Positions 2,398 to 46,386 of a stretch of 64,000 nt of DNA are shown here, in pieces. Numbering within the stretch: the stretch's first letter is position 1; the number at the start of each line of letters is the position of its first letter. This DNA comes from a virus. A program made the translations under genes and the position numbers. Below the pieces are notes generated by a model. That model searched no databases and was not told where the DNA came from. It was given only the letters and a program-made list of their open reading frames with translations. Location: the IMG/VR virus record IMGVR_UViG_3300008114_000040, positions 1 to 64,000 of that record. One strand, written 5' to 3'.

Positions 2398-4605
2398 TTA
2401 AAAATCTAATTTAATAGGATACTGTTGAATTCCCTGTCTTTTTTGGGGTGACTGTATCTTAGATATAACCATAAGTTCTTTATCAGCATTGTAAAGTCCA
2501 ACTTCCGTAATATAAGGTGAAGTTGTTCCGTTCCATGTTGGATTTGATGAATCAAAAAACTGAGTTTGACCTAAGTTACATAAGAAATTCATAACATAAA
2601 TGGTTGCTTGAATGTCTGTTTGAATGTTACCAAAGAAATAATAGTCACCACCAAAATTAAAGGTCACGCCAGTTTGATTCAATACCGGAATATCCAAATA
2701 GTTCGTTAATTGATAAATTGGTGCTGTATCATACATATTTTTGGTAATCTGATATGTTACACCGGTTAAACTATTAAGGGTTAAATATCCTCCAGATGTT
2801 GTGGCGGAATATTGGTCTGAAATATTTATTTCTCTCCATTGTGTGGTGTCTGGTCTTGATGTTCCACTAGGTACTTTCTGAGCCAGTATTGTTATATCAT
2901 TGGCCGAAAAACCAGAAGGTGAAGTTCCAAATGTTGAGGTTAAAAATGGAAATTCGTTTCCAAATCTTATAATTATATCTGAAGGTCCAGGAAGTAAACT
3001 TTGATCATTACCTGAAATTGTTGTATAATAATTACAGTGGAGTGAATTTGTGAACGCCGAACTATTTAACCTATACGTTAAAAACAACGTTTCACTACTT
3101 CCACTAAGTAATCCGGTAGTTCCACCCAAAACACCATTGAATGTATTTGGTGTAACAAGTCCTAACTTTGGTGCTGGTAATGTCCAACTTCTATTTGATT
3201 TTGAATTTAGTGTTGCCACAATTTCTTCATCATCAAAAATAATCATTTTATAATCTGGAAACACTTTACCAACTCTATTTGGGTACCCATTTACATTAGC
3301 ATGTGTATCCCATAAATGATAGTATCTTAACCCAGGACTATTAAATTGAATATCTTTTTTACTTTTAATATAATGTACTTCAAACAAGTCCAATGATGTA
3401 AAACCAGATGGGTCCACATAAAAGTCCTCACCAATCGTACCATTTGGGTTTTTGTGCCACATTAACCATGGAATACTAAGTTTGAAATTTCTCGCTTGTC
3501 CGGTGTTTCCTGGGTTTGTCGGATCATAATCTTGCATAGCGAATTTTTCACCATAAAAATTATCAATGGATTGATTGGTGTAATGTACAATCGCAATGGC
3601 TTTTTGATCCACTGGTGGTACGATTATTTCTTCAGAAAAACTATTGTAGTAATAAACTCTATCAGTATCAGTTTGACCACCAGACTCATTATAACCAAAA
3701 TACTCTTTTGATCCACAATAACCGCTTGAAGCGTAAAAATTATAATCTTGATATGTCGTATTAAATATTCCAGCCGGTGATTCAGTCCACGGTGAATTCA
3801 TATTCCAAACTTTTACATCGGCTTGTGAAATGTCACAATTTGACTCAAAATTAAACGCGTCAGTATTCCAATAAGGTTCTGGGGTGTATGAATCATATAA
3901 TTCAGTCATACTAGATGGATAAAAAATCACACTACTATTTCCACTATAACCTAAAGATGTGAAATCCGGTAAATTTCTATCCACTTGAACCGTTATGGTT
4001 GAGCCAGTTGACGTGTCACCGGTAATTCCAACAACTACAAAAGTAAACATTGGTGAATTACCGCTTAAAGGTTGGATTGAGTTTTGGGTAAATAAAGTTA
4101 TGATTGATCCGACATTTGCAGTACCAGAAACTGATGGGTTAATGGAAGTTGCAGATAAAGTTAAAATGGTTCCAGATGTTAGAGTTGTGTTATCAACAAC
4201 AAAATTTGGGTTAATTGTGTATGCTGAAGTTGTAAGTAATGTAAAACCACTTACACTATTACCACTAAAAAATCCTCTAGGGGCGGCACTATTGTAAACG
4301 TTATCAATATAGGACGCATCAAAAGGAACCCCGTATGTTGCACCTGAAGTTGAATCCAAAAATAATGGATACTTAATATTCATTCTGTTTTTTTCGGGTA
4401 CCGGTGATAAGTTTTGTGAATTATCCTGTGGCATCAACACAAATGAATCATTTAAATTCATATTATTTATACAGTCATAACAAACTTCACTATCACCTAC
4501 TTGGAAGTAAGAAATATCAAACTTACCTTGTGATATTTTTTTTCTGGCAGCATCGGTTATTTTAGTATTAATTAGTGCTGCGGTATTTTTGATTATGTAT
4601 GACAT
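2398..4605 (-). CDS. Tail-collar-fibre-like virion protein
   Basis: The first ~40 residues (MSYIIKNTAALINTKITDAA... through FQVGDSEV) resemble the N-terminus of phage tail-collar fibre proteins (DUF3751 / P2 gpH type), with the 'VGD' signature. The C-terminus has YITEVGLYNADKELMVIS, a phrase common to fibre and baseplate attachment proteins. The middle is rich in Ser, Thr, Gly, Asn and aromatic residues, and has no enzyme motif. I infer a baseplate-attached fibre or baseplate-fibre adaptor. It is the last gene of the adhesin locus before the resolvase. An ATATTTAT motif lies 5 nt before the ATG. Confidence 0.65.
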   Translation of the reverse strand: MSYIIKNTAALINTKITDAARKKISQGKFDISYFQVGDSEVCYDCINNMNLNDSFVLMPQDNSQNLSPVPEKNRMNIKYPLFLDSTSGATYGVPFDASYIDNVYNSAAPRGFFSGNSVSGFTLLTTSAYTINPNFVVDNTTLTSGTILTLSATSINPSVSGTANVGSIITLFTQNSIQPLSGNSPMFTFVVVGITGDTSTGSTITVQVDRNLPDFTSLGYSGNSSVIFYPSSMTELYDSYTPEPYWNTDAFNFESNCDISQADVKVWNMNSPWTESPAGIFNTTYQDYNFYASSGYCGSKEYFGYNESGGQTDTDRVYYYNSFSEEIIVPPVDQKAIAIVHYTNQSIDNFYGEKFAMQDYDPTNPGNTGQARNFKLSIPWLMWHKNPNGTIGEDFYVDPSGFTSLDLFEVHYIKSKKDIQFNSPGLRYYHLWDTHANVNGYPNRVGKVFPDYKMIIFDDEEIVATLNSKSNRSWTLPAPKLGLVTPNTFNGVLGGTTGLLSGSSETLFLTYRLNSSAFTNSLHCNYYTTISGNDQSLLPGPSDIIIRFGNEFPFLTSTFGTSPSGFSANDITILAQKVPSGTSRPDTTQWREINISDQYSATTSGGYLTLNSLTGVTYQITKNMYDTAPIYQLTNYLDIPVLNQTGVTFNFGGDYYFFGNIQTDIQATIYVMNFLCNLGQTQFFDSSNPTWNGTTSPYITEVGLYNADKELMVISKIQSPQKRQGIQQYPIKLDF

Positions 4606-6254: not shown

Positions 6255-6475
6255 TAAATTTCTTCTTTATTAATTATTGTTCTTGTTCCTCCACTGAATA
6301 ATAATATTTCATTTTCATTCAAAGGGTAGTAATATGTTATTTTTAATTCATCAATTTTATCAAAACATTCTTCTTGTGTATTTCCTTCAAAAATTTGATG
6401 AGGTGTTGCGGTTATTCCATTTGTTTCAAACAAATCAATAACTTCTGTATTTGTATATATTAGTCTCCAAATCAT
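6254..6475 (-). CDS. Small hypothetical protein (73 aa)
   Basis: I do not recognise this protein. The frame opens at 6496 (80 codons), but the ATG at 6475 gives MIWRLIYTNTEVIDLF and forms a TAATG junction with the stop of the upstream repeat protein. The shorter form is therefore preferred. The sequence is mildly acidic, with no membrane segment, and contains a QEECFDKIDEL stretch that suggests a helix. It lies between two adhesin-like genes with no spacing, which suggests a small virion or fibre-assembly accessory protein. That is inference from position only. Confidence 0.6.
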   Translation of the reverse strand: MIWRLIYTNTEVIDLFETNGITATPHQIFEGNTQEECFDKIDELKITYYYPLNENEILLFSGGTRTIINKEEI

Positions 6476-8199
6476 TATGAATGTGTTATTGTCCAATTAT
6501 AGGGTGAACCTGTTAAAAAATTTCTTGCTGCAATCCCATCATAACCACCTGAACTATAGTTTGGTGCCTCATTTGTTCCTCCAATATTTAAATTAATATT
6601 AGACCATCCTGTTGGGTTATATGTTGCATTTCCACTAAAATCAACTAATATGTGATTTACGGTATCGGCAGACATTCCATTATCTCTTAAAGATATTCTC
6701 GGATTTCCTTGTGTTGTACCAGATAATAATGTTGCACCAGATAATGGTGTAAAATCAATATAATCTAGATTACAACTATGTAATGCAAAAGTACCGCCAC
6801 CTTCATTATTTTGAGAATTTTTAAAAAATTGATTTGAATTTGGAAAAATAATATTTGTTAAATTTGTATTTGAATGTAACCTTACAACACCTTGAACTAT
6901 CGCACTGGTTGGACCACCTAACCTTGTTAAAAGTGATAAATCCAATGTTCCGGTTAAATTACAACTATGTGCCTGATAAACTCCAAAATTCCTTAATGAT
7001 ACCGAATGTGTTATACTTGTTAAACCACTATTACTAAAGACCCTAAAGTCACCACCTAACCCAGATAATGGTGTTAAATCTAAATTTCCTGTTAGGTTAC
7101 AACCATTTGCTTCGTATTTAAAAAAATTTTGTGACGATATTGAATGTGTTATACCAGTTAAATTTATATTACCAAGAACTTGAAAATCACCACCCAATCC
7201 GGATAATGGAGTTAAATCCAAATTTCCGGTTAGATTACAAAAAAATGCGTAATAACTTGAAAAATTCCGTGATGATGGTGTATGTGTTATTCCAGTTAGG
7301 TTGGTATTATTTTGAACTAGGAATTGACCGCCCAATCCAGAAAAAGGTAAATTTAGATTTCCAGTTAAATTACAGGTGTTAACATTATAAAGTGTAAAAA
7401 TTTGCGATGATGGTGAATGGGTTATTCCTGTTAATTTGTTATGTCCTTGTACTTGAAAAGTGCCACCTAAACCGGATAATGGTGTTAAATCTAAATTTCC
7501 GGTTAGGTCACAAAGATATGCTTGGTATGTTGTAAAATTTTGTGATGATGGTGCGTGTGTAATATTAGTTAAGCCACTATTGCTGTAAACATTAAAAGTA
7601 CCTCCTAAACCAGATAATGATGTTAAATCTAAATTTCCAGTTAGGTTACAATTATTTGCAACATAGTTGGTAAAAACCCCTGACGATGGTGAATGGGTTA
7701 TTCCTGTTAAATTTAAGTTATTATTAACCCTAAAATTACCTCCTAATCCAGATAGTGGTGTTAAATCTAAATTTCCTATTAAATTACAATAATCAATTCG
7801 GTAATTTTGAAACGTATTACTACTAGATGGATTTGTTATTCCGGTTAAATTTATGTTGTTATTTAGTGCTATAGTAGTATTATTCGCTAAACTAGTTAAT
7901 CCAGATAAATTAATATGACCAAATAAATTGTCGTCATCTAAGGTAAAATTATTTAACCCCCTAAAACTATTACCTCTCATTTGAATGGTCCGTATTCCAG
8001 GGTCTGAAGTAAATCCAGTATAAGTTAATGAAATACCTGCCGTTTGAGTAATATTAGAACCATTATCCAGTCTCCAAGAAACCCTTCTTGATCCACTACT
8101 AAACGCAACTACTGGGTCAAAAGAAGATGTTGAACCACTCTTTTGAATGGTTAGTACTTGTCCTATATTATTTCTTGATGTAAATTGTTGCCTACTCAT
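6475..8199 (-). CDS. Leucine-rich-like repeat fibre protein (574 aa)
   Basis: From residue 138, seven copies of a ~46-residue unit run in tandem. Each starts CNLTGNLDLTPLSGLGG and continues LTGITHSPSS. Each unit reads as two ~23-residue leucine-rich or solenoid turns. The N-terminus has MSRQQFTSRNNIGQVLTIQK and no signal peptide. The C-terminus ends in a different fold containing NHILVDFSGN. Repeat solenoids of this kind usually bind proteins or glycans, so a receptor-binding role is inferred. The gene is flanked by other adhesin-like genes. Alternative: a structural spacer of the fibre. Confidence 0.65.
   Translation of the reverse strand: MSRQQFTSRNNIGQVLTIQKSGSTSSFDPVVAFSSGSRRVSWRLDNGSNITQTAGISLTYTGFTSDPGIRTIQMRGNSFRGLNNFTLDDDNLFGHINLSGLTSLANNTTIALNNNINLTGITNPSSSNTFQNYRIDYCNLIGNLDLTPLSGLGGNFRVNNNLNLTGITHSPSSGVFTNYVANNCNLTGNLDLTSLSGLGGTFNVYSNSGLTNITHAPSSQNFTTYQAYLCDLTGNLDLTPLSGLGGTFQVQGHNKLTGITHSPSSQIFTLYNVNTCNLTGNLNLPFSGLGGQFLVQNNTNLTGITHTPSSRNFSSYYAFFCNLTGNLDLTPLSGLGGDFQVLGNINLTGITHSISSQNFFKYEANGCNLTGNLDLTPLSGLGGDFRVFSNSGLTSITHSVSLRNFGVYQAHSCNLTGTLDLSLLTRLGGPTSAIVQGVVRLHSNTNLTNIIFPNSNQFFKNSQNNEGGGTFALHSCNLDYIDFTPLSGATLLSGTTQGNPRISLRDNGMSADTVNHILVDFSGNATYNPTGWSNINLNIGGTNEAPNYSSGGYDGIAARNFLTGSPYNWTITHS
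6860..7790 (-). repeat. Seven tandem ~138-bp coding repeats
   Basis: The segment encodes seven units of 46 residues (one of 45), each starting with the codon of a Cys. The first starts at 7788 and the seventh at 6963. The DNA copies are similar but not identical, for example in recurring runs equivalent to LDLTPLSGLGG. Such an array can gain or lose units by recombination or slippage. Confidence 0.85.
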
Positions 8200-8209
8200 A
8201 AATTAATTT

Positions 8210-9076
8210 TTAAGAATAATCATTACCGACCGTCCAATACATTACTGAACCATTATATGTAAATGTTAAAATATCAGTTGCGCTTGCGTTGGATGTTAAT
8301 ATGATAGTTCCACCACCTCCGTTAGCGACTCTATGTGTACCACTACCACCATTAACATTACCTAAACTTAATGTTCTTCCACCAACACCATCTTGTGTTA
8401 CAATTAAAGTTCCGTACTCACCATTCCTTACACCAGTTAATGATAGTGTTGTGTTTGCCGTTAATGTAACTTGATAGTTTGTACTTAAACCAGAAACGTT
8501 CCAGTTAAATGAAGTTCCGGTTGAACCGATGTTGTTATATGAATTAATAGGTGATGTTATTCCGGTAACAGATATTGTGTAATTTCCGTCATTATTAACT
8601 AAACCTATGTTAGTTCCTGCGGTTAACCCACTTACAGGTAAATTCTGATAAGTTGTTGCCGATATTGTATTTGTACTTAAACCATTTGTAAATGATGTTG
8701 TTCCACTTACTGTTCCTCCGGTAAATGTTCCACCTCCTGTCGGTGTTTGCCAACTGGCATTTCCATTACCATCTGACGTTAAAACGTATCCGTTTGTTGC
8801 ACCAGATGTCATTTGGAAATTTGTTGTTATTGTTTTTCCAGAAATTTTAACTTCATTTCCTGCCGCAAATATTAGATTACTTCTATTGTTATTATCTGTA
8901 CCATTACCTAAAATAAACGCACCTTGTGTTGTGTCACCGGTCACGTTCCACATTCCTTGTGCGTGTTGGTAATCGCCATTTGTTACTGTTCCGTATCCTT
9001 CGGCGTGAGAATAATCACCAAACGCAGTCGTAAAACCTCCTTCAACGTGTTGATTCACCTTCACTATGTGACACAT
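8210..9076 (-). CDS. Fibre C-terminal part, probably split from the upstream gene
   Basis: The 288-residue frame begins in mid-repeat: after a few odd residues it reads GGFTTAFGDYSHAEGYGT, the same 14-residue YadA-head-like repeat that fills the upstream gene. It continues with ISGKTITTNF, a TISATTYQNLPVSGLTAG module shared with the upstream gene, and a Gly/Thr-rich C-terminal domain ending VMYWTVGNDYS. It overlaps the 589-aa frame by 35 nt in another frame. The most economical reading is one fibre gene of about 860 residues broken by a frameshift. If translated alone its start at 9076 would be unusual, because it lies inside the repeat. Confidence 0.6.
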   Translation of the reverse strand: MCHIVKVNQHVEGGFTTAFGDYSHAEGYGTVTNGDYQHAQGMWNVTGDTTQGAFILGNGTDNNNRSNLIFAAGNEVKISGKTITTNFQMTSGATNGYVLTSDGNGNASWQTPTGGGTFTGGTVSGTTSFTNGLSTNTISATTYQNLPVSGLTAGTNIGLVNNDGNYTISVTGITSPINSYNNIGSTGTSFNWNVSGLSTNYQVTLTANTTLSLTGVRNGEYGTLIVTQDGVGGRTLSLGNVNGGSGTHRVANGGGGTIILTSNASATDILTFTYNGSVMYWTVGNDYS

Positions 9077-9935
9077 TACCTAATGCTTTTGTGTCATTAC
9101 CTTCAGCGTGTGAAGTTGTCCCACTGGCGGTTGTGAATGAACCTTCAGCATGAGAACCATTACCTAATGCTTTTGTGTTACTCCCTTCGGAATGTGAGGT
9201 AGTACCTAACGCTGTTGTTAATTGTCCTTCACTATGTGACACATTACCTAATGCCTTTGTGAGGGCTCCTTCAGCATGAGAACCATTACCTAATGCTGTT
9301 GTGTATGAGCCCTCAGCATGTGATTGAATACCTATTGCTGTTGTACTAACACCTTCAGCATGTGATGCGTAACCTAATGTGGTACCACCACTATAGTAAT
9401 CAAAACCATCATAATACCCACCTTCTGCGTGTGAACCAGAACTAATTGCGTTTGAGAATAGTCCTTCCGCATGAGATGAAAACCCCACCGCCACTGAACT
9501 ATAACCTTCAGCATGAGTACTTTGATTTATGGTGGTTGTACTCATACCTTCAGCGTGTGAATAAAACCCAGATGCCGTGGTACTAGTACCTTCGGAGTGT
9601 GAAGCATTACCCAGTGCTTTAGTGTTAATACCTTCGGAATGTGAGGTAGTACCGAACGCTGTAGTGCTTGACCCTTCACTATGTGAACGTAACCCTATCG
9701 CTTTTGTTAACTGTCCCTCGGAATGAGAATAAGTCCCCCACGCGGTCGTATTCCATCCTTCAGCGTGTGATGCATCACCAACTGAAGTGGTTTGTCTACC
9801 CTCAGTATGTGAGTTGGTACCATATGATTTAGTATAAAAACCAGAACTTGTTGAAACATCACCTAGAGCAACTGAGTAATACCCGGAAGCAGTTGAGGCA
9901 TAACCAAGCGTCACTGTACTTATACCTCTAGAATG
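9015..9935 (-). repeat. Array of 42-bp repeats encoding 14-aa YadA-head units
   Basis: Units read SHAEG or SHSEG at regular 14-codon spacing, interrupted by one longer insertion around 9370-9420 (a GYYDGFDYYSGGTT stretch). Another short cluster lies at about 10235-10345. DNA copies are close, for example recurrent runs equivalent to TKALGNxSHSEG. Spacing between the last in-frame unit and the next unit is 19 nt instead of 42, at about 9048-9080. Confidence 0.85.
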
Positions 9936-10811
9936 TGAATAATCTGTTGTTATTATTTGATCACCATTCCAATTATAAATACCGGTTAGATTTCCTACTT
10001 TTGCGTTCCCGGTACAAGTGGTACCTGTTTGATTTAGATATATTATAGTATTTGGTGAGGAAAAGGTCACTGCCGATACTGTAAAGTTTGATTTCCCAAT
10101 ATCATAATTAAAATCTCTATCGTCAATAACTACAGTGTCACCTGAAGAAAATGATGTCGTTATATCCCCATAACTAGAATCTAAAGTAACCACACCACTA
10201 GTTATGGGTCCACATAAGTAGGCACCATATTTTCCTGTTTGTGAACCCCGTCCTTCCGTATGAGAAGCGTAACCAAATGAAGTTGTTTGATAACCTTCAG
10301 CGTGTGAATAATCACCATGTGCCGTAGTTTCTCTACCTTCAGCATAGGATAATAATCCGGTAGCCACTGAACCAGTAAATTGTATACTATCGTGAATTGT
10401 TATTGGTGAACATCCGTGTAAATTACTTACATATAAGTCATTTATACACGTTGCCGATGTATTCCCAGTAAATGAACCACCAGTTGTTCCCGTGAAAGAT
10501 ATTGTGAAATTACCGTTTGAACCACTTATGTTAATGTTATTACCGGCAGTTAATCCACTTATTGGTAAGTTTTGATAAGTTGTTGCACTTATGGTATTAG
10601 CACTCATACCACTTGTAAATGTGGTCGGTCCGGTTACAGTTCCTCCGGTGAATGTTGATGCACCAAAAATTGAACTTAGTTGTTGTAGTTCCGCTTTATA
10701 GGACGATCCCGCCATATTTTGTGAGGTATCCGCGGTGGTTACAATATGTATTAATGTTGTTGGTGTAATCGCTGAGGATTGTGCCAAGGTTTTATCCGTT
10801 AATCTAGCCAT
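9042..10811 (-). CDS. YadA-head-like trimeric fibre, N-terminal part (589 aa)
   Basis: Residues ~1-50 form an anchor module, AITPTTLIHIVTT...GSSYKAELQQLS, shared with the 351-aa fibre at 15.8 kb. Next comes TISATTYQNLPISGLTAG, then a long array of 14-residue repeats of the type SHAEG-x-x-T-x-A-x-G-x-x, about twenty copies. This pattern is that of the YadA/Hia head repeat, a left-handed trimeric beta-roll, and also occurs in phage fibres. The frame stops at SHSEGESTR, where the next repeat is out of frame. No C-terminal tip or chaperone domain remains in this frame, which supports a frameshift into the 288-aa frame. A receptor-binding long fibre is inferred. Confidence 0.75.
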   Translation of the reverse strand: MARLTDKTLAQSSAITPTTLIHIVTTADTSQNMAGSSYKAELQQLSSIFGASTFTGGTVTGPTTFTSGMSANTISATTYQNLPISGLTAGNNINISGSNGNFTISFTGTTGGSFTGNTSATCINDLYVSNLHGCSPITIHDSIQFTGSVATGLLSYAEGRETTAHGDYSHAEGYQTTSFGYASHTEGRGSQTGKYGAYLCGPITSGVVTLDSSYGDITTSFSSGDTVVIDDRDFNYDIGKSNFTVSAVTFSSPNTIIYLNQTGTTCTGNAKVGNLTGIYNWNGDQIITTDYSHSRGISTVTLGYASTASGYYSVALGDVSTSSGFYTKSYGTNSHTEGRQTTSVGDASHAEGWNTTAWGTYSHSEGQLTKAIGLRSHSEGSSTTAFGTTSHSEGINTKALGNASHSEGTSTTASGFYSHAEGMSTTTINQSTHAEGYSSVAVGFSSHAEGLFSNAISSGSHAEGGYYDGFDYYSGGTTLGYASHAEGVSTTAIGIQSHAEGSYTTALGNGSHAEGALTKALGNVSHSEGQLTTALGTTSHSEGSNTKALGNGSHAEGSFTTASGTTSHAEGNDTKALGNVSHSEGESTR

Positions 10812-11124: not shown

Positions 11125-12756
11125 TTAACAATTTCCGTTTACGTCACATTTAAATGTTATTTTACCCATACTATCCACTTCAAATATTTTCTCAGTTTGA
11201 TTAATATTTTGCGTTTGTAATACTTTAATGTATGTTACAGTGAATGGTGTTGTAAGTGAACTATTTTCATATAAATAGATACCGGTATCTAAAGTACTCA
11301 CACTATAATCAGTATAGAATTGTACATCACCTCCGAAATCTGTTAACTCACAAACAGGACAAGATATAGAATACTCACCTTTTGCTTTCCATAATCTATA
11401 TGTTGGTGTTGGTTCCGGATCAGGTGTTAAACATTCCAAACAAGTCGTATATGTGGTCGCAGTTGTTGCCGTAAATGTATCCACGTTGGTTACAATGTAA
11501 CCTGGAGGTGCAATATAGTTTACAAAATTACCCACATACGAATAACAAGATCCAGATGTTTTTAATATATCATCAATTTGTATGTTTAATGGTGGTATCG
11601 CCGTTTGTATAATCATTGAATTTGTTGTACATGATGTAAATATAAATTCTGTTCCCATAGCATATGTTGGTGTTGGTGTCGGAGTAGGTGTTGGTGTCGG
11701 AGTTGGTGTAGGTGTTGGTGTAGGTGTTGGAGTTAGGATTATACATTCCGAACATCCACTTGTATATACGTCCAAAATTTCCACCAAATTTCTATTTGTT
11801 GATGCGGTCGTTACTCTATTATAAGTCACACATTGGATTTGATCTGAATTATTTCCATGTAATATCGCTAAGAATGTTGTTCCTGCCGATAATGATAAAC
11901 CACCATAACTTAATTCACTATCAATATAGTAAATTGAACCATCCTCACAATCAATAAGTTCTTTAACAAGTGAACAAACAAAATTACCACTATCAATGAT
12001 AAATGTTACAGTGTCTGCCGATGGTATGACCGTTACCGTTGGTGTTGGTGATGGAGTTGGAGTTGGTGTAGGTGTTGGTAATGGTCCAGTCACAACTGTA
12101 ATGTCAGCCGTAAACCCAGAACAAGGATCAACCGTAGGAGTTGGAGTAGGCGTCGGAGTAGGAGTTGGTGTAGGTGTTGGTGTAGGTGTTGGTACAATAA
12201 TTTCACATTCCAATAACACATCAAAATCTAATAACGAACATGGGTCAGTAGGTATTGGTGTAGGTGTTGGGCAACTTCCGTTTGTCATAACCGTTGGGTC
12301 TAAGTCCGGACAATCCGATGTTGTTGGATTTGGACCGAAAAAGAACGCAGTTCCACCTAAAGTGTCACTCAAACACCATTTGTTTGTATCAAAAAACAAA
12401 TACCCAGGATTTGTTCCACCTGTCCAATACGGTTTTGAGTTATATGTTCCAGTTAACACATAATCACCAGTATATGCTGAATATGCACTAAATGGTATGT
12501 TAATACACATATTCTCATAACAACATAATTCAACACAAGATGGTTCCGTACACCCAGTACTTAATAGGGTCGCGGTACCATCAAATACAAACGGACCGTC
12601 CGCCGTTACACCGGTTACAATCGTATAACAACCATCCATAATATTTGTATCACCCGTAATTTCAAAAGAAGTTAAAGGGGTGGGGACAAACGACCACGAA
12701 CTGGCACTATATACTATTTGTGTATAACAACAACTACTTAATATAATATCCGCCAT
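11125..12756 (-). CDS. Cys-rich protein with three (Thr-Pro)n linkers (543 aa)
   Basis: Globular, cysteine-rich segments such as CVELCCYENMC and CSECIILTP are separated by three long Thr-Pro dipeptide tracts, at about residues 188-209, 225-242 and 341-364. Thr-Pro linkers are extended and often O-glycosylated in secreted proteins; here they would be spacers in a fibre-like protein. The C-terminal part (YRLWKAKGEYSISCPVC) resembles beta-sandwich adhesin domains but is not assigned. The two glycosyltransferase genes lie directly upstream in the same direction. A TTATTTAT motif lies 20 nt before the ATG. Confidence 0.6.
   Translation of the reverse strand: MADIILSSCCYTQIVYSASSWSFVPTPLTSFEITGDTNIMDGCYTIVTGVTADGPFVFDGTATLLSTGCTEPSCVELCCYENMCINIPFSAYSAYTGDYVLTGTYNSKPYWTGGTNPGYLFFDTNKWCLSDTLGGTAFFFGPNPTTSDCPDLDPTVMTNGSCPTPTPIPTDPCSLLDFDVLLECEIIVPTPTPTPTPTPTPTPTPTPTVDPCSGFTADITVVTGPLPTPTPTPTPSPTPTVTVIPSADTVTFIIDSGNFVCSLVKELIDCEDGSIYYIDSELSYGGLSLSAGTTFLAILHGNNSDQIQCVTYNRVTTASTNRNLVEILDVYTSGCSECIILTPTPTPTPTPTPTPTPTPTPTPTYAMGTEFIFTSCTTNSMIIQTAIPPLNIQIDDILKTSGSCYSYVGNFVNYIAPPGYIVTNVDTFTATTATTYTTCLECLTPDPEPTPTYRLWKAKGEYSISCPVCELTDFGGDVQFYTDYSVSTLDTGIYLYENSSLTTPFTVTYIKVLQTQNINQTEKIFEVDSMGKITFKCDVNGNC
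11663..11735 (-). repeat. (Thr-Pro)n coding tract
   Basis: On the plus strand this reads as GGTGTT/GGTGTA hexamer repeats, which encode Pro-Thr dipeptides on the minus strand. Similar tracts lie at 12035-12082 and 12131-12193. Hexamer repeats are prone to slippage in whole codon pairs, so linker length could vary without breaking the frame. Confidence 0.85.
12131..12193 (-). repeat. (Thr-Pro)n coding tract
   Basis: The longest N-terminal linker of the 543-aa protein, encoded by near-perfect hexamer repeats. It separates a segment ending in CEIIV from one beginning VDPCSG. Confidence 0.85.
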
Positions 12757-12776
12757 TATGTGTTTTTCTTTCTTTT

Positions 12777-12785
12777 ATAAATAAC
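12777..12785 (-). promoter_or_regulatory. Candidate TTATTTAT motif upstream of the 543-aa gene
   Basis: On the minus strand the gap between the tandem glycosyltransferase gene and the 543-aa gene reads GGTTATTTATAAAAG. It is one of several [A/C/T]TATTTAT motifs lying 5-26 nt before virion gene starts. A late-promoter role is a guess from recurrence. Confidence 0.25.
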
Positions 12786-15797: not shown

Positions 15798-16853
15798 TTA
15801 CCAGGTTTCGCCACTTACTCTAACCCACCCAGTATTGTTTTTTAAATAGATGTAGGTATTGTCCCAACTAATTGAACCCGGTACTCCATTTGTGTCCGTA
15901 CTACCAGATGGTGTATAAGATGTTGATACAACCAAAGTATCTCCAGTTAATCCACTTGTGAAAATATTTGTTGGGTTCTCCCATCTTGCTTCACCTGTTG
16001 GTAAAACACAAGTTAAAACTTTTCCGACAACCTCTTGACCATCTAGTAATTGAATTGCATAATCATTTGGTCCTCCTGCAACAGTACCTTTAATGGCAAT
16101 ATTAGAATCATTAGTAATTCCTGCTGTTGTTTGTGCCCAAAACACGACATTTGATCCACCTAAACCATAATTATTTTCAGAATTTACGGTCAAACCATAT
16201 GTTGTACCACTAACGGTTGTACCATTAAAAATACCAGCAGTTATAGTATCACCAGTTGAATAAATGTCAAGTTTAGCGTTTGGGTCCCCAAAAACACCGT
16301 ACCAATCATTTATCCCAATTCTATTATTTACTACATCAATTGTTACACCACTACTTGAACCAAAATAAACATTACCTTCATCTTCATCATTTATAAAAAG
16401 TGGTGAGAATGATTTTAATCTAGACGCCTTCATATAATCAGTAAAACTTCCTCTAGGTCCTAAAAGTGTGTTAGTAACCTCAAGGTCTTTAGTTACTACC
16501 TTTTCCGAAGTTGTGCCTGTGGCGATTATTAAACAACCACCTTCAGTGACCGACAATGTATAACCTGTGGTTCCTGTTGCTATTGTTTCAAAACACACAT
16601 TATCGTGAAATGTTGTACCAGAACAACCATACACATCAGACACATATAATTCATTAATACATGTTGCAGATGTATTACCAGTAAATGTGGAACCACTAAA
16701 CAAATTTGATAGTTGACCTAACTCGGCTTTATAGGATGACCCGGCCGGATTTTGTGAAACATCATCGGTCGTTACTATATGTATCAATGTTGTTGGTGTA
16801 ATCGCCGTTGGGTTGGCTAAAACTCTATCCGTAAGTAATTGATAAGTTGGCAT
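15798..16853 (-). CDS. Tail fibre with shared anchor module (351 aa)
   Basis: The N-terminus AITPTTLIHIVTTDD...GSSYKAELGQLS is nearly the same as in the 589-aa fibre, so both probably dock on the same baseplate or fibre partner. The middle has SATCINELYVSDVYGCSG, also shared (SATCINDLYVSNLHGCSP in the other fibre). A different distal part follows with YFGSSSGVTIDVVNNRIGIN and a C-terminus ending WVRVSGETW, typical of beta-structured phage fibre tips. There are no YadA-head repeats here. I infer a second receptor-binding fibre. Confidence 0.7.
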   Translation of the reverse strand: MPTYQLLTDRVLANPTAITPTTLIHIVTTDDVSQNPAGSSYKAELGQLSNLFSGSTFTGNTSATCINELYVSDVYGCSGTTFHDNVCFETIATGTTGYTLSVTEGGCLIIATGTTSEKVVTKDLEVTNTLLGPRGSFTDYMKASRLKSFSPLFINDEDEGNVYFGSSSGVTIDVVNNRIGINDWYGVFGDPNAKLDIYSTGDTITAGIFNGTTVSGTTYGLTVNSENNYGLGGSNVVFWAQTTAGITNDSNIAIKGTVAGGPNDYAIQLLDGQEVVGKVLTCVLPTGEARWENPTNIFTSGLTGDTLVVSTSYTPSGSTDTNGVPGSISWDNTYIYLKNNTGWVRVSGETW

Positions 16854-16869
16854 ATGTTATAAATATCAA

Positions 16870-17158: not shown

Positions 17159-17449
17159 TTATATCCAAATTAATTCGTCACCATCTTCGGTAATCATTAT
17201 GAGTCCATCCTCGGTTAAAATAAAATAGGTATCTTCTGGACAACTAACAATCTTAAATACAGTACAACCAACACTATCAATTACTTTAATCATCAGTGTT
17301 GTTGCTGTTTCATAAAAAGTGGATGCCGTATATGTTCCACCAGTTGTTGCAAGTACTGAACAATTATTACCATTTTCATCACAAATATAAAATGTGAATG
17401 GTGGTACTCCCCCTGTAATTCCTGATATGGTAAAAACTTGTTGTGTCAT
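17159..17449 (-). CDS. Small SprB-like domain protein (96 aa)
   Basis: Third member of the small family: ISGITGGVPPFTFYICDENGNNC, then LMIKVIDSVGCTVFKIVSC. It differs from the other two in its C-terminus (LTEDGLIMITEDGDELIWI), which contains a short internal duplication of 'TEDG'. It overlaps the 753-aa gene by 4 nt (ATGA), so the two are probably co-translated. Confidence 0.65.
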   Translation of the reverse strand: MTQQVFTISGITGGVPPFTFYICDENGNNCSVLATTGGTYTASTFYETATTLMIKVIDSVGCTVFKIVSCPEDTYFILTEDGLIMITEDGDELIWI

Positions 17450-19707
17450 ATGAAATAAGATGGTTGATATTGAAATGATAGTCCAGTTGACCCTGTGTAA
17501 CCATATATTAGTACTTCCGTACCTAAAGTTCCACCAGTAAATTGAACGGCATAAATTTCAAAATCTCTAAAGTCAGATGGGTTGTTTAAATAAACCGTAT
17601 AACGGTATTGATATCTAACATATGCTGAATTATTATTGAATAAGGATTGTACAGAAAATCTTGGGTAACTAAAATCAAAGGTTTGAGCACTCAGCGATGG
17701 TACAATGGTAGGTGTACTACCAGTATAAACGATAGTTTCATTTAGGTATTTAGGGTATCTAACTACACCGTTAAATGTATCCGCACTTGTAGTTGTAACA
17801 CCACTACAAGCTAAACTAACTTGGTAAAAAGGATCACTATATTTACTACCAGTGGTTGTGGTACCTGAAAAATTATTAGTCGTACCAGTAGATCTGTTAT
17901 TTATCAAGTCAACGTAGTCTGACTGTATATTACCCGATAAACTACATAATGGGTCATAGGTCAAGTTATTCACTATGGTTGGCATTGTTAATCTAAAGGT
18001 ATAATTTGGTCCCGTTGTACCAGTTGTGACCACAGTGGATGGGTGTATCATAAAATTTAATTCTGTGGTTCCATCACCACAATTAGTAGACCCAGTGTTT
18101 GAAGGTATTGCTAAATTATAATATCTATAATATCTAATATCTGTTGAATCATAAGGGGTACCACTCCATGGTCCGGCGGACGTAGTGCAGACACCAACTA
18201 ACCCAGGTGAACTACCCGTACTAACATTTAAATATGAATTATAATAAGTGTTAAAATCAACAATATTACTAAATTCCATATCTATAACACCCTGAGTCCC
18301 ACCACTTACATACTTTTGGTATGTTATAGTGTTTGAAGATGGTGTGGAACAAATTCTTAGTACGTTTTTGGGTTGACTACTAATATATGTCGGTGTATTT
18401 ATTCTCAACAACCCGGTAGACCGATTAATTATATACGGTGAATCTTCATAAACAAATAACGTGTCGTAGTTTGTACCTCTTAATAGTAAAGTATTTCTAA
18501 AATCATTAACTATATATTTTGTAAAATCATCAACATTATATGGACAACCACTCAAATTAAATGTTATTTGATTTGTATTACATACCCCAGTAGTAGATGT
18601 GATTGTTGATGCTGAGATTTTATAAGGTATATTGTTAAAAATACAAGAGTCTTGATTAAATGAATTTAAACAAGTAAAATAAAAATCCCAATTTGTTTGT
18701 GTGTTTGCCGAATTTGGTATTACCTCTAATTTTATTGTATCATTAATATTTTGTGTTAAACCAGTAAAACAATTAACTTTTTTGATAAAAATAGTACTAG
18801 AACTTGTTGCGGCACTTTTTGGTGTTTCATTTAAACTAAAGTTGGATGTTGTCAAGTCTGACCCAACAACAATATCTTCAAATATTAAAGGTTCAGAATA
18901 GGCAGAACCATAATATGTCAATCTTAATCTATCAGGTACTGAATAACCCCTAAATTTCCACGCAAAATAATTAGTAGTAGTTGCGGTCAATAAGAAAGTA
19001 CTCTCCAAGGCTTGTGGCACAACCCCCGCCGCAGCACCAGAAAAACTCACCCTATGTTCATAATTAGCATCATCACTTGACCCATCACCATTATCACAAG
19101 TAAACGGGTTAATAGTTACTGTGACCGAGGAAAAACATTCTAACTCTGCCGGTATTGTTCCGGTCCCTCCTGTTTGAGAAAAAGTCAACCCACTCAATTT
19201 AATTTTATCAATTACTGGTACATATGTACCTGCTTGAGCTAAAATGGCGGAACTTCCGGTTAATGGATGAGTAAAGGAATACGGCACATATTCTGACCCA
19301 TAACCTGATATAAATACAGGATTTGTGGTGTCTCCAGTTTCATACCAAAAAATTCTATAATCGGTAATATTTACTTCACAAGAACCTGTCAAATTACCAG
19401 CAACTAACCTACCAATAGTATTTGCACTATATGAATTAAAATCTAAATCACAAGTCGTACATAAATTATTAGATTGTACCGGTATATCACAAGAACAACC
19501 CGTTCCAATATCATAAATTCTAATTTGTGTTGTAAAATCTGGTACATTATCAATATAGTAAGGACATTCGTTTCCTGTTATTGCTGATAAATTTATGTTA
19601 GTTTGGAATGGTGTAGTGTACCCATCTACATTACTATATAAATTTAACACACCACCTAATGGTGTTGTTCCTGTGTATGATAAGCATGTTACGGCGGAAA
19701 ATGACAT
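17446..19707 (-). CDS. Large beta-rich virion adhesin-like protein (753 aa)
   Basis: The protein is rich in Thr, Ser, Asn, Tyr and Cys and has no enzyme motif. Its N-terminus (TCLSYTGTTPLGGVLNLYSN) and segments such as IYDIGTGCSCDIPV and NVDDFTKYIVNDF suggest consecutive beta-sandwich domains. The C-terminus is aromatic (YVRYQYRYTVYLNN; FQYQPSYFI). It lies 7 nt after the SprB-repeat protein and overlaps the small SprB-like gene downstream. I do not recognise a family; a host-contacting or fibre-support role is inferred from the neighbourhood. Confidence 0.55.
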   Translation of the reverse strand: MSFSAVTCLSYTGTTPLGGVLNLYSNVDGYTTPFQTNINLSAITGNECPYYIDNVPDFTTQIRIYDIGTGCSCDIPVQSNNLCTTCDLDFNSYSANTIGRLVAGNLTGSCEVNITDYRIFWYETGDTTNPVFISGYGSEYVPYSFTHPLTGSSAILAQAGTYVPVIDKIKLSGLTFSQTGGTGTIPAELECFSSVTVTINPFTCDNGDGSSDDANYEHRVSFSGAAAGVVPQALESTFLLTATTTNYFAWKFRGYSVPDRLRLTYYGSAYSEPLIFEDIVVGSDLTTSNFSLNETPKSAATSSSTIFIKKVNCFTGLTQNINDTIKLEVIPNSANTQTNWDFYFTCLNSFNQDSCIFNNIPYKISASTITSTTGVCNTNQITFNLSGCPYNVDDFTKYIVNDFRNTLLLRGTNYDTLFVYEDSPYIINRSTGLLRINTPTYISSQPKNVLRICSTPSSNTITYQKYVSGGTQGVIDMEFSNIVDFNTYYNSYLNVSTGSSPGLVGVCTTSAGPWSGTPYDSTDIRYYRYYNLAIPSNTGSTNCGDGTTELNFMIHPSTVVTTGTTGPNYTFRLTMPTIVNNLTYDPLCSLSGNIQSDYVDLINNRSTGTTNNFSGTTTTGSKYSDPFYQVSLACSGVTTTSADTFNGVVRYPKYLNETIVYTGSTPTIVPSLSAQTFDFSYPRFSVQSLFNNNSAYVRYQYRYTVYLNNPSDFRDFEIYAVQFTGGTLGTEVLIYGYTGSTGLSFQYQPSYFI

Positions 19708-26075: not shown

Positions 26076-26085
26076 TTTTTATTTT

Positions 26086-26094
26086 ATAAATAGT
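26086..26094 (-). promoter_or_regulatory. Candidate ACTATTTAT motif upstream of the 302-aa gene
   Basis: In the 31-nt gap the minus strand reads AACTATTTATAAAAT before an A-run and ATG. It is one of the clearer copies of the recurrent [A/C/T]TATTTAT motif. Its function is not established. Confidence 0.3.
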
Positions 26095-36423: not shown

Positions 36424-36888
36424 TTATATATTAATTATTATAAATTCTCTTGACCCAAAAGCATTATTATTGTTTGTATAGTCAATTCTTAATTTTGCGG
36501 TGTACTCTTCCGTACTAGCACCAGGTACTCTATATATATCACTTGTCCCCAATAAGTCAGTATTTAATTCGTCCGGGGCTTCATCTGATTGTAAATATGG
36601 TGTAACTGATATGTTGTTAATTATTAAATTTGGTATATATTTATCTACTTGTTCTTGAATTTCAGCTTTGATTCCTTCAAAGGTCTCACCATCAAAAGGG
36701 TCAAAAATAAATTCATAAATTCTGGTCCCGAAATCCGGTAAATAATACCTACTACCTTTTCTTGTTAAAATCAAGTGTAGTAAGTTTGATCTTATTTCTT
36801 CATCTGTTGTTTCCGACAATGAAAAATAATAACCAAGCGGATTGTTCCTAAAAGGAAAATTAACACCATATGTTGTTCCATTTGCCAT
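36424..36888 (-). CDS. gp25: T4 gp25-like baseplate wedge protein
   Basis: A 154-residue protein of the gp25/lysozyme-fold baseplate family: FPFRNNPLGYYFSLSETTDEE, LHLILTRKGSRYYLPDFGTR, IYEFIFDP. The PDFG stretch and following 'E' residues are the conserved core. In T4, gp25 joins wedge to hub and tail sheath. A TATATTTATTA motif lies just before the ATG, and a terminator for the upstream nrdA gene lies about 45 nt before it. This gene therefore probably starts its own transcript. Confidence 0.85.
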   Translation of the reverse strand: MANGTTYGVNFPFRNNPLGYYFSLSETTDEEIRSNLLHLILTRKGSRYYLPDFGTRIYEFIFDPFDGETFEGIKAEIQEQVDKYIPNLIINNISVTPYLQSDEAPDELNTDLLGTSDIYRVPGASTEEYTAKLRIDYTNNNNAFGSREFIIINI

Positions 36889-40360: not shown

Positions 40361-42811
40361 TTAATTGTTTTCTGATTGTTGTTCTTTTAACTTCTTTTTT
40401 TCCAACAGTTCTTTAATTCTGTTCCTATTCTTTTCTTCTTTTTGTTCTTCGTGACCTAGAAACGTCACACTTTGTTCTGTATCAATTTCCAACATTCCGT
40501 TGTCAAACTTACAATTTTCAAACACAATACCATCTTTACCAATTCTGGATTTTGTGATTGCAATTGTCGCCAAATTCATTTCTTTTTGTTGTAATGATTT
40601 TGCAACCGTAATAATGACGTGGGCAACTTGTGCTTTCTTAATAGATCCACCCATTTGATCAGTTGTTACAACATCAGATGAGATTGAACTTCTTGAACCT
40701 TGGGTGGCCGTCCATCCCGCAATATCAAGTTCATGACACATTGATTCAAAACCTCTCATTACTGAACCCTCACTTTTCCATTCGTCGCCCAAGTTTTTAT
40801 CCGGAACAACACAATCAATATAATCCAAAATAAGCAAATCAATCTTTGTTCCTTCGGCCATCATTTTTCTTATCTGAGTTTTAATCTGATTCATTGTTAC
40901 CGTATCTGATGGTAATTTTTTCATAATCAACTTATTCTTTCTTGTTGATTGGATGTGTTTAACTTTTGCCATAACTTCCTCTCTATTTTCAGAAAGTTCG
41001 TCCGGATGAATTCCAGTCCAAAGTGTCATATGTTTTCTTTGAATAATTTTTGCATTGTCCTCAAAGAAAATCTGAAGTACATTATACCCCAAATTAAAGG
41101 CGTGATTGGCAATTTTTGTGGTGAAGGTCGTGTTATGTGTTAAAACATAATCTCTGGTTACATACAAGCAATCTGGGTTTGATACTTTAATACAAACCGC
41201 TTCTTCATCGTGTGTGTGACTTATTGACTTAACATACTTTTGTTCAACATATTTTGTTCTTTTATAATACCTACTAACTTTTCTCATTAGTTTAAATGGT
41301 ACAACATCATTAGCAAAGGAAATTGTAACATTATAAGTTAGTTGACCTTGTTTTTTCTCACCATTGATTCTATAAGTTGGTATTTTTGTTTTAACTCTAA
41401 CAGTACCACCTAAAGATAATACAAGTTCTCTAACATCCTCACTAAGTTGTTTTGATATGGTTGTAAATTGAACCAATCCTTTTTTAGCTACGTACCCATC
41501 AGTGTCCATCAAACCGCGAAGTATTTCAATTCTGTTGTCCAATGAATTATACAAATAATCTTTTGGTATGAATTTGTTGTTTGATTTCATTCCCTTCAAA
41601 CCATATGTTTCCAATTTTTTGGCAACATCACTTTTCAATCTAATTACCTTGATTGTTTTTTCATTGGTTTTGGTATATTCTGTAAAGGCGGTATGTTCTG
41701 ACAAATGTGAAATATTTTCAAACAACTCATCATCTTTTGTTGAAATAATGGGGTTACTTTGATTTAAATAACCATCACCCAACAATAACCCCATAAGGTA
41801 TGGATCAATAGTTACTTCTTTTTGTTCAAACTCAATTGGGGCAACCACTGGAAGTCTATAATTGTATCTACCTCTTTTTTTGATGTCATTTACCATATCC
41901 AAGGTTTTAACAACTTTGTATCCAAAATTAGGTGAATAAGTGTTTTTTCCTTTAACTCTTACCTTTCTGGTTCTCATATTAAGTGTGTTTACACTCCACA
42001 AATGTTCAGCGTCACAATTGGAAAATGTCCCATCACTAAACTCAACTTTATAGATCGGTCTGATACCTTGGGGGTACACCCCCAATACATATTGTTCTTT
42101 ACCATCGGAACCAATAACTTTATCACCCACTTTTAGATCGCCCATTTTGGTCCAACCTTTTGGTGTTAAAACCGGTTCAGAAATTGGATTAGCTTTTCCC
42201 GTTCCGGTAGGGGCCAAAAATACCCCAATTTCACCCTTAGCCAAACCACCCTTTAAAAGGTTATCAATACCTGGAATTCCAAGTGGAATTGGGTGTCTAA
42301 AATCATCATCCAAAACCTCATCCAAGTTAAAAAATACATCCATTGTACCTTTGTCAACTTCACCAACTTGAAGGGCCCCTCTGACCATTTCTTCCAGTTT
42401 ATCATAACTTTCAAAATCTCCCTTATCAATTATTGATTGGGCTTTGGTCATAACTTTTTGAAGTTCTTGTTGTTTACAGAATTTAAGTGATTTTTCTTGA
42501 ACAAAAATGGATCCTTCATCTGATACATTCTTTACTTGGTCCAAGGTGTCCAAAACACTTTTTTGGGCCATCGGTGAACTAATTTCAGATTTGGTTAATT
42601 GTTCCAGAGTGTCAAACGTTGGTGTATGTTCATACTTTGAATAATATTCCTTAATCATCTGACAAATGATTTTGAAATATTGGTTATCAAAATAATTTGG
42701 TTCAATAACTTCAATGATGGAATTGGAAAAATCCTTATAAATTATAATGTTATTTAATAGTTGAATCTGAAAGGTGTTTCCTAAGTATCCGAAGTTTTTT
42801 TTGTCTGACAT
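40361..42811 (-). CDS. gp41: Replicative DNA helicase (gp41/DnaB type) interrupted by an intein
   Basis: The 816-residue precursor should splice to a 462-residue helicase, near the length of T4 gp41 (475). The N-domain is helical. The RecA-like domain starts at [20 protein letters not shown], and Walker A GTGK ends at residue 206, where the intein begins. After splicing the motif reads GTGKTTF. Walker B is LLILDYIDC at ~659-667, and a later TATQGSRSS matches DnaB motif 3. Spliced protein is expected to unwind the fork and recruit primase. A Lys/Glu-rich C-terminal tail follows. Unspliced protein cannot have a working ATP site. Confidence 0.92.
41132..42193 (-). other. Intein with LAGLIDADG endonuclease, in helicase Walker A
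   Basis: Residues 207-560 of the precursor (354 aa). The N-terminal splicing block is [20 protein letters not shown], with Ala at position 1; the end is [10 protein letters not shown] with Asn last, and the next host residue is Thr. Two LAGLIDADG motifs are seen: [11 protein letters not shown] and [11 protein letters not shown]. Ala at position 1 marks the less common splicing route that skips the first thioester step. Insertion is between Lys206 and Thr of GTGK-T. Boundaries follow from motif alignment. Confidence 0.9.
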
Positions 42812-43304: not shown

Positions 43305-44312
43305 TTACTTTTTTGTTTTAAATTTTGTTTTTTCTTTTCTTGTTAGTTTTAAAAATGGTTTTAAAAAATAAACCCACTGATCATCTCCCTTGGGTAGATA
43401 TTTAAATAATCCGTCCTCCATCATCATCCGAATTAAGTTTTTATACCCTCTTCCGTCAGGATCCAATGACTCAGAATAATATAATTTAACCAATTCCTTT
43501 CCTTCTTCACTTATTAGTGGTTCGGACAAATCCACTATCTTTTTGTTTACTTCAAAAAACTCATCACCAAATATCCCCTCCTTTGTTCGCCCAGTTAAAA
43601 GGTTCTTTAATGTGGTGTTGTCCTTTTGTTCTTTCAGTAAATCCTCACCTCTTTTTAAAATATCGGAAAAACTTATTTCTTTTTCAAGTATCTCAGGAAA
43701 TAACTTTACAAAAGTTTTTTCTCCAAGATAATAAATCCCATTAATATTGTCGGATTTGTCACCAGAAATAATTTTAAAAGTTTTTACATTGTAGTGTGGA
43801 ATCTCAATGGAGTTCATTTTGATTGTATCCCCCTTTTTATAATACTTCTTGGTGTTTGGTGAGTAAATGGTCACATCTTCCGAAATAAGTTGTGTAAGGT
43901 CTCTATCCGCACTGAAAATCGTTTTTGATTCATCCTTTGCAATTTTACAATAATAGGCAATTAAATCATCGGCTTCCGAATTTTCAAACTCAACTTGTCT
44001 AACGAACATTTCTTCCAAATATTGTTTAACTCGTTGTTTTTGTTTGTTATAAGATAACTCCAGATTTTCATCCTCAGATCTTTTTCTATTTAACTTATAG
44101 TTTGGATATACCATTCGTCTTTGTGATGAACTTGTTTCACCATCCCAAAACACAACGGTTTTGTTGAAGTTATCTTCATCAATGAACCTACGTAAGGTAT
44201 TTAAAAAGTGCCAAATACCACCAACGTGTTCAACACCATTGAAATATCCTTTAACACCATAAAAACCAATCGTTAAAAGGTTGTCACCGTCAACCAATAA
44301 GGTTTTAGTCAT
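43305..44312 (-). CDS. rnh: 5'-3' exonuclease / RNase H (FEN-type)
   Basis: The N-terminus LLVDGDNLLTIGFYG carries the first metal-binding Asp (Asp8, with Asp10 next). Further acidic motifs of the flap nuclease family follow: VVFWDG, FENSEADDLIAYY, SADRDLTQLI and ISGDKSDNINGIYYLG. This is the arrangement of T4 RNase H, which removes RNA primers from lagging-strand fragments. The 335-residue length fits T4 RNase H (305). It overlaps the methyltransferase gene by 8 nt. The helix-hairpin-helix region after SGDKSDNI is present, so the enzyme looks complete. Confidence 0.88.
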   Translation of the reverse strand: MTKTLLVDGDNLLTIGFYGVKGYFNGVEHVGGIWHFLNTLRRFIDEDNFNKTVVFWDGETSSSQRRMVYPNYKLNRKRSEDENLELSYNKQKQRVKQYLEEMFVRQVEFENSEADDLIAYYCKIAKDESKTIFSADRDLTQLISEDVTIYSPNTKKYYKKGDTIKMNSIEIPHYNVKTFKIISGDKSDNINGIYYLGEKTFVKLFPEILEKEISFSDILKRGEDLLKEQKDNTTLKNLLTGRTKEGIFGDEFFEVNKKIVDLSEPLISEEGKELVKLYYSESLDPDGRGYKNLIRMMMEDGLFKYLPKGDDQWVYFLKPFLKLTRKEKTKFKTKK

Positions 44313-46386
44313 TGATTATTTCATTAAGGGGGTTTGACAATACTGGTTTGTTTTTTGAAATATAATCTGAGAAGAACTCAGAAAAAATAGCTTCCATTAC
44401 CGGGACACAAATTGAGTTTCCGGCCAAAGATACGTGGGCGGTGTTTGATAACGATGTTGATAGTAACAAATCAATGTCTTCTTCTTTAACACCCATAAAC
44501 CGATAACCTTCCCTTGCGGTGATTGTTCTTACACGACCGTCTTCTGTCATAATTTGGGGTGAACCACTTGTCGTTAAAGTTGGGGAACATCCGTCAACCG
44601 AATAAATCCTTCTGGCTTGATCATAACTTATGTCATCCCTTCTTGCGATTAATCTACAAATGGTATCTTTTTTTGGTTGATGAGGTGTGTAATTACAATC
44701 AACAATTAAGTCGGGATTAAAATTTTCATCAATAAATGAACGCATCGGAACTCTCGGTTTTTTGTGATTGTTTACATTTTCCATTTTTTGTTTGACCTCG
44801 TCTGAGTCTCCGTGTAATACTGAAATCATAAAAACACGTTCTCTATTTTGGGGACAACCAAAATCAGCTCCGTTTAAAAGTTTCCAATAAGATGTGTAAC
44901 CTAGACCTCGTAAGTAATAGATGTGTTTTTGAAAGTTATCAATGTGATTTTTGGAAACAAGGTTTTTGACATTTTCCATAAGTAGATACTTCGGTCTGTT
45001 AGTTGAAAGGATTCTCTCAACATCAAACAATAATCCACTTCTTGTCCCTTCTTTTATCCCTTGTTGATTTCCAGAAATTGAAATATCTTGACAATTATGG
45101 GCAATACAACCATTAGCGGTAAAAGAGTGATCCTCTTCAACTTCAATATCATAAACAAAATCACTAGTCAATGTATTTTCAACATCTATCACTTTAGACC
45201 AAACATATCCGTTATCATAAAATATTTTATTTCTTTTTATTTCCCCTATTTTGAATCTTATTTCGTATGATGGTCTTTGATTAACGACTCTATTTTCAAT
45301 GATACAAGTTGGGGGTCTTTCTGATCTATAAATGGAATATGGTACCCGATACACTTTACTAACGCATTGTGCAATACCATAAATTAACTCCCTACTAGTA
45401 CTTGAAATACTATTAGTATTGTCTTTTTTAACGTTCCCATCAGCAGAAAAATATCCCTCAATAAAAGACTCCAATAAATTCGTAGGTAAATCTAAAACAG
45501 TATTATTTAGATGTTTACCGTGTGCGTATTTTCCAAACTGAGACACAAATAAACCTATTTCTTTTTTTGGTAAATGTATCTTATATGTTGACCCATCTCT
45601 AACAACTGTTGCGTTAAATTGTAATTTTTCTAATCTTTCACTAATTTCTTTAAGTTCTTTGTCATTTCTGTTTGTACAACAAATTATTATACCTCCTTGG
45701 TGTCTTAACCAACCATCACCAATGTATCTTCCAATTACCCACCAAAAATCTTTATTATCCATATAACTAGATAATTCATTTTTGTGTCTTGTTTTTCTAC
45801 CATCTTTCCACTTAAAACTAATACCATCCCATTTAGGAATAATACTATTTTGATTAATAGCAACCCCAAGATAGTCATTACTTGTTAAATCTTTACACTC
45901 TTTCCAGTGTGGTTCTGTTATATTATTTTTATCACCGTCTATCTTAGTTCTAACATAAAATCTATGATTTTCAGTTGTTTTTAACTCATTAAATATAGGT
46001 GATTTTATTTTCCATATTTCTTTTTTTCCTTGTTCAAATTTATTTGTAACTTTTTTGTATGTGTTAGTATGTGTTAAAACTAAATCATTAATTTCAACAT
46101 CTATAATATTTTTGTGTCCAGTACTAGTTAAAACAAGTGTATCCTTAGTAAAACATGGGAAGGAGTATGTTAATAAATCACATTCTGGGAATTTTGTTTC
46201 ATCAATTTTTTTAATATCACCCAAATTACCATTTGTCGTTTTATGTAAAACGTCATAACATTCATTGGCTGGTCTGAAATTATCACAATTAGAAACAACT
46301 TCATAATTAACACCTAAATATTTAAGTGCTAGCTCCTGTGTTCCGTAACCGGAAAATAATGATATTACTTTTAACTTTTTGTCCAT
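44305..46386 (-). CDS. DNA (cytosine-5) methyltransferase interrupted by an intein
   Basis: The 693-residue precursor should splice to a 339-residue C5 methyltransferase, typical of the M.HhaI class. Motif I is VISLFSGYG at 8-15. The motif IV Pro-Cys-Gln is divided: Pro77 before the intein, and catalytic Cys432-Gln433 after it. Motif VI is MENV (470-473) and motif VIII is PQNRERVF (~512-518). The C-terminal motif X is VSLAGNSICVPV. It should methylate cytosine in DNA; the recognition sequence is unknown. No cognate restriction gene lies nearby, so phage DNA protection or regulation is likelier than a full restriction-modification system. Confidence 0.92.
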   Translation of the reverse strand: MDKKLKVISLFSGYGTQELALKYLGVNYEVVSNCDNFRPANECYDVLHKTTNGNLGDIKKIDETKFPECDLLTYSFPCFTKDTLVLTSTGHKNIIDVEINDLVLTHTNTYKKVTNKFEQGKKEIWKIKSPIFNELKTTENHRFYVRTKIDGDKNNITEPHWKECKDLTSNDYLGVAINQNSIIPKWDGISFKWKDGRKTRHKNELSSYMDNKDFWWVIGRYIGDGWLRHQGGIIICCTNRNDKELKEISERLEKLQFNATVVRDGSTYKIHLPKKEIGLFVSQFGKYAHGKHLNNTVLDLPTNLLESFIEGYFSADGNVKKDNTNSISSTSRELIYGIAQCVSKVYRVPYSIYRSERPPTCIIENRVVNQRPSYEIRFKIGEIKRNKIFYDNGYVWSKVIDVENTLTSDFVYDIEVEEDHSFTANGCIAHNCQDISISGNQQGIKEGTRSGLLFDVERILSTNRPKYLLMENVKNLVSKNHIDNFQKHIYYLRGLGYTSYWKLLNGADFGCPQNRERVFMISVLHGDSDEVKQKMENVNNHKKPRVPMRSFIDENFNPDLIVDCNYTPHQPKKDTICRLIARRDDISYDQARRIYSVDGCSPTLTTSGSPQIMTEDGRVRTITAREGYRFMGVKEEDIDLLLSTSLSNTAHVSLAGNSICVPVMEAIFSEFFSDYISKNKPVLSNPLNEIIND
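45094..46155 (-). other. Intein with LAGLIDADG endonuclease, in methyltransferase active site
   Basis: Residues 78-431 (354 aa). It starts CFTKDTLVLTSTGHKNIIDV, with Cys at position 1, and ends ANGCIAHN, followed by the catalytic Cys of the host protein as the +1 residue. LAGLIDADG-like motifs are VIGRYIGDGWL and FIEGYFSADGNV. It is equal in length to the helicase intein but clearly different in sequence. The +1 nucleophile for splicing and the methyltransferase catalytic Cys are the same residue. Confidence 0.92.

Follow-up and report, generated by a model that had tools for sequence, protein, structure and literature searches.

A tail fibre gene split between two reading frames in an uncultured phage contig, most likely an interrupted gene and probably a lesion of the contig

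The stretch of DNA analysed here (‘the window’) covers the opening 64 kb of a virus record that is 89,567 bases long, and within it a gene for a YadA-head-like tail fibre is divided between two overlapping open reading frames (ORFs). The observation of a split is correct, but the split itself is most likely not biological: on sequence evidence it most likely represents an interrupted gene, and not a device for controlling expression. Exactly 65 nt are missing from the repeat array of this gene relative to a nearly identical contig, and the favoured explanation (with a probability of roughly 0.6) is a lesion that this assembled contig acquired during assembly or sequencing, in preference to a real deletion carried by the phage.

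The fibre locus

The two ORFs lie on the minus strand, in different frames, and both read a 14-residue SHxEG repeat. The upstream ORF (9042..10811; 589 aa) comprises the N-terminal anchor (MARLTDKTLAQSSAITPTTLIHIVTT...) together with the majority of the YadA-head-like repeats, and ends with SHSEGESTR followed by a stop, while the downstream ORF (8210..9076; 288 aa) supplies the final three units and the C-terminal portion of that fibre. The array (8954..10349, minus strand) consists of 42-nt units, each encoding 14 aa, of which 24 are recognized in the window. Neighbouring units are 42 nt apart, with the exception of a long unit at 9434 (27 nt longer, and in frame), a non-array insert inside the array (10265-9812, or about 9813-10250), and the site of the split, where an SHSEG unit starting at 9071 is followed only 19 nt later, in the +1 frame, by a QHVEG unit starting at 9052. 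The shifted frame then brings in a TGA stop after GESTR (9042..9044, minus strand). This description agrees with that of the first-pass annotation, which had reported the change of frame in the array, the end of the upstream protein after GESTR, and the presence of the remaining array and the C-terminal tip in the 288-aa frame.

By comparison with Pfam, the repeat array is far beyond chance: it matches the YadA_head family (PF05658) with E = 5.8e-18 and 65.2 bits, against a cut-off of 25, so that the gene carries the SHxEG-type 14-residue head repeats of a YadA-head-repeat fibre. The C-terminal 112 aa (8213..8548, minus strand) form a conserved beta domain, identified through alignment, AlphaFold2 and Foldseek, that is common to many phage fibres with differing middles. 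The domain is predicted to be all-beta (AlphaFold2 pLDDT 86), and Foldseek searches place the predicted structure close to the C-terminal regions of numerous BFVD phage fibres and, among PDB entries, to the capsid spike of Pseudomonas phage Pa223 (E = 3.4e-4). As a result of the split, the upstream fragment has lost the apparent tip of the fibre, and the downstream fragment its anchor.

The neighbourhood contains baseplate wedge genes, and by its gene content the locus is that of a tail fibre in a phage with T4-type baseplate genes. Adjoining the fibre gene is a gene for a 574-aa protein of approximately 45-residue repeats (6475-8199; CNLTGNLDLTPLSGLGG...NLTGITHSPSSQNF), the length of which varies in relatives and which is probably another adhesin; on the other side, a 543-aa protein (11125-12756) contains several long (PT)n linkers that simple repeats encode.

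An intact copy in a near-identical contig

A 72-kb contig (IMG/VR IMGVR_UViG_3300008267_000250, hereafter G001; loci L005 and L026) is 99.9% identical to the window and, at that level of sequence identity, is the same phage. The two contigs share a stretch of 36.7 kb with the same gene order, and over the 18.5 kb around the fibre they are separated by 15 substitutions and two indels; near the fibre, the 65-nt indel is the sole one. In G001 the fibre is a single ORF of 888 aa (L026:8001-10667), with 25 array units as compared to 24 in the window, and the N-terminal anchor and the C-terminal tip that are divided between two ORFs in the window are there encoded in one. Up to the junction, two SNPs are the only differences between the arrays. 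An earlier proposal, that one formerly continuous fibre had been broken by the loss of sequence, is thereby borne out. Elsewhere, G001 has gaps of its own, of 201 and 75 nt, in two different tail genes (discussed below).

The deletion junction lies at 9047..9050 (minus strand), where 65 nt of G001 (L026:9763-9827) are absent. The loss corresponds to one 42-nt unit plus 23 nt, and removes one complete unit (SHAEGYETTTVGQS) together with parts of its neighbours. The first-pass annotation had put the missing sequence at 23 nt; the loss and the resulting frame shift are as it described, but its figure is the minimum deduced from the spacing of the units, and the true loss is 65 nt. Three placements of the junction are possible, which corresponds to a microhomology (and an ambiguity) of 2 nt (CA), and comparison of the 42 nt surrounding each breakpoint gives agreement at only 13 of 42 positions. 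The longest exact repeats in the fibre gene, of 21-30 nt, are not found at these breakpoints.

Together these comparisons suggest a simple course of events. The normal state would be one fibre of approximately 888 aa, in which a YadA-head-like shaft connects the virion anchor at the N-terminus with the conserved C-terminal beta domain; the loss of 65 nt from the shaft shifts the frame, creates a premature stop and so leaves two ORFs.

A separate irregularity is seen at 36547-36757 of the window, where roughly 26 positions differ from G001 in its first 220 or so bases, followed by near identity over the next 18 kb; this cluster is possibly a chimeric contig end or a strain switch in G001.

The single frame in more distant relatives

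Contigs from three other metagenomes (L008-L010), with 78% identity to the window over the C-terminal part, have the matching units joined to the tip within a single open frame of 2,504 aa, and therefore the window copy is the derived one and its loss is private to the window contig. An exact search of the other IMG/VR contigs returned no copy of the window's junction sequence, and the intact form of the region was found in IMG/VR only in G001. The 112-aa C-terminal domain is present in 15 complete distinct fibres (G001 included), nine with an LIHIVTT-type anchor and six with another N-terminus; it is in frame with the N-terminal part in 15 of 15, and none of the 15 is split.

These comparisons bear directly upon the possibility, raised in the first-pass annotation, that programmed +1 frameshifting yields a full-length fibre from both overlapping ORFs. 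The overlap of the frames and the stop at the shift (CGT TGA) are the only features that speak for such a mechanism, and this is the least probable of all the readings considered. Neither the 99.9% identical copy nor any of the 15 complete distinct fibres is split, so that neither the overlap nor a shift site is conserved in relatives; the deletion by itself accounts exactly for the new frame; and inspection of the sequence at the shift (ACA CGT TGA A) revealed neither a slippery site like the CUU-UGA of prfB nor an SD-like stimulator at a prfB-like spacing.

That the ORFs encode two genuine, separate proteins, with the downstream one starting at the ATG at 9074..9076 (minus strand), is only marginally more credible. 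The downstream ORF does possess this ATG, with an AGG close upstream. However, the codon results from the repeat motif GGTAATGTG in the alternative frame, and 24 of the 27 ATGs of the array fall in the same +1 frame, so that both the ATG and the open +1 frame are incidental by-products of the repeat sequence; the same ATG is also found in the intact copy, where it is out of frame with the fibre. Furthermore, the product would be without the N-terminal anchor that complete relatives have, and none of the relatives (15 complete distinct fibres) encodes the C-terminal domain alone.

A phase-variable site, or a mixed population in which the fibre is switched on and off as parts of the array are lost and regained, was also suggested at the outset. 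The array does contain exact repeats of 21-30 nt, and the two contigs do differ in state, yet this reading too is very improbable: 65 nt is not a multiple of the 42-nt unit, the microhomology amounts to 2 nt, the junction lacks any homopolymer or short tandem tract (so that the breakpoints offer no reversible tract or repeat), slippage could not restore the deleted sequence, so that the loss would be irreversible, and the junction is found in no other contig in IMG/VR.

Contig lesion or real deletion

The remaining alternative is that the 65-nt deletion is real and private to this phage, and that the fibre gene is a fresh pseudogene producing a 589-aa fibre with no tip and a 288-aa fragment with no anchor, with the loss being tolerated because other fibres or adhesins remain. 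This is a possibility of some substance, although it is clearly the less likely of the two. In its favour, the window copy is derived relative to both G001 and L008-L010, and a second gene with the same N-terminal anchor, a paralogous fibre of 351 aa (15798-16853; ITPTTLIHIVTT...SYKAEL), could compensate for the loss. Real phages often lose or alter fibres. A de Bruijn assembler requires the k-mers of a junction to be present in reads, and so a variant molecule may really exist. Variation of host-recognition genes between nearly identical phages is documented (PMC3909814), which also counts towards a real deletion.

The structure of the junction argues in the other direction. If the array had truly recombined, the 21-30-nt exact repeats available in it should have been used, while the observed junction uses 2 nt, which favours an artefact; nor is a DNA hairpin seen at the deletion site (fold z = +1.1). 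The same features exclude an ordinary collapse of repeat units during assembly, as the loss is not a multiple of 42 nt, the breakpoints share only 2 nt and the longest exact repeats lie elsewhere. The suggestion in the first-pass annotation of an assembly error in repeats is thus favoured insofar as it invokes an assembly error, but not insofar as it places that error in the repeats (2 nt shared, 13 of 42 positions in agreement, and a loss that is not a multiple of 42). The deletion would instead be a chimeric, non-homologous junction in the contig, and not a state of the phage population.

Additional weight comes from the sister assembly, in which similar lesions are found in conserved genes; these point to contig errors, and by extension favour the same origin for the deletion in the window. 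In G001, 201 nt are missing in frame and with no microhomology from a 735-aa gene (window 3411-3611, in ORF 2398-4605; L026 after 15265), and 75 nt are missing in frame and with 2 nt of microhomology from a 753-aa gene (window 18859-18933, in ORF 17446-19707). Both are conserved, non-repetitive tail genes. The 67 residues removed by the first of these gaps are present in all 62 other distinct intact-frame homologues (65 aligned rows less the window, G001 and a broken homologue, L021), and the 25 residues removed by the second in 10 of 10 other homologues; on this conservation, the 201-nt gap is probably a lesion of the G001 contig. The broken homologue, from a further contig of G001's metagenome (3300008267_000143; L021:13180-15173), is interrupted twice, with net changes of -80 and -113 nt, which suggests that a problem runs through the whole assembly of metagenome 3300008267. 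Of four contigs of that metagenome carrying the 735-aa gene, two (G001 and L021) have large deletions in it, as compared to 0 of 78 others (Fisher p = 0.0018, a rough test in that it was devised with the data already in view and on loci picked for their similarity to this gene). The reading frame is broken by three of the five lesions (65, 201, 75, 80 and 113 nt), as expected without selection.

Some observations run counter to a contig lesion. Both deletions in G001 are in frame, as real variants would be; the other conserved genes of the window that were checked show no lesion; and the rate measured in 3300008267 need not apply to the metagenome from which the window derives.

Three further candidates for the same class of lesion were rejected. 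A primase homologue near a contig end (3300008117_000170; L083:11838-12396) has its frame disrupted by a change of about 1 nt, as opposed to a large deletion, and two overlapping ORF pairs of G000 proved, from their matches to unrelated families, to be neighbours and not fragments (46641-47907, a UvsX-like recombinase and phrog_1811; 86783-89000, a glycosyltransferase of family 9 and DUF2827).

Significance of the split

A contig lesion therefore remains the favoured account of the 65-nt deletion, and the split carries little biological weight. Even if the deletion were real, the result would be an ordinary inactivated fibre gene; a real and recurrent loss of the fibre tip in the wild phage population, with the tip-less shaft representing a host-range switch by gene inactivation, is decidedly unlikely. 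The practical value of the case is as a warning: where a fibre gene in a contig of an uncultured phage is split, comparison with near-identical contigs should come before any proposal of frameshifting or phase variation. In addition, at least one metagenome assembly, 3300008267, seems to have lost stretches of 75-201 nt from conserved tail genes repeatedly.

Two features of the window outside the fibre locus deserve mention. A DnaB-type helicase with a LAGLIDADG homing endonuclease insert (40361-42811) and a C5 DNA methylase with an Intein_splicing/LAGLIDADG insert (44305-46386) represent probable inteins in two replication/modification genes. The motif TATTTATA is over-represented in the window (22 sites, versus 13.5 +/- 3.9 expected), with several sites just upstream of gene starts (for example, at 12776-12783, 16858-16865 and 26085-26092), and is possibly a late-promoter-like motif.

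Comparison with known systems

A DNA search of cultured phages, and a tblastn search with the 735-aa tail protein as the query, gave no match. For the fibre, the nearest cultured matches are tail spikes of Flavobacterium phages vB_FspM_immuto, and related C-terminal domains are found in contigs of Bacteroidota metagenome-assembled genomes; from these sequence matches, the host is probably a member of the Bacteroidota. A pelagiphage tail fibre with a YadA domain is known among marine phages (PMC3909814), and the type of fibre is therefore not new.

The tail spike of Flavobacterium phage vB_FspM_immuto is built, as is the fibre described here, from repeated SHxEG, YadA-head-like units; the difference is that here the frame is broken, in one contig. 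The head repeats are also similar in sequence, through matches in the PDB, to those in the heads of the trimeric autotransporter adhesins BpaC (7o23) and Hep_Hag (3s6l). A Pfam scan of the window fibre gave no sign of a membrane anchor domain, and the fibre differs from those adhesins in that its repeats are combined with a phage N-terminal anchor and a phage C-terminal domain.
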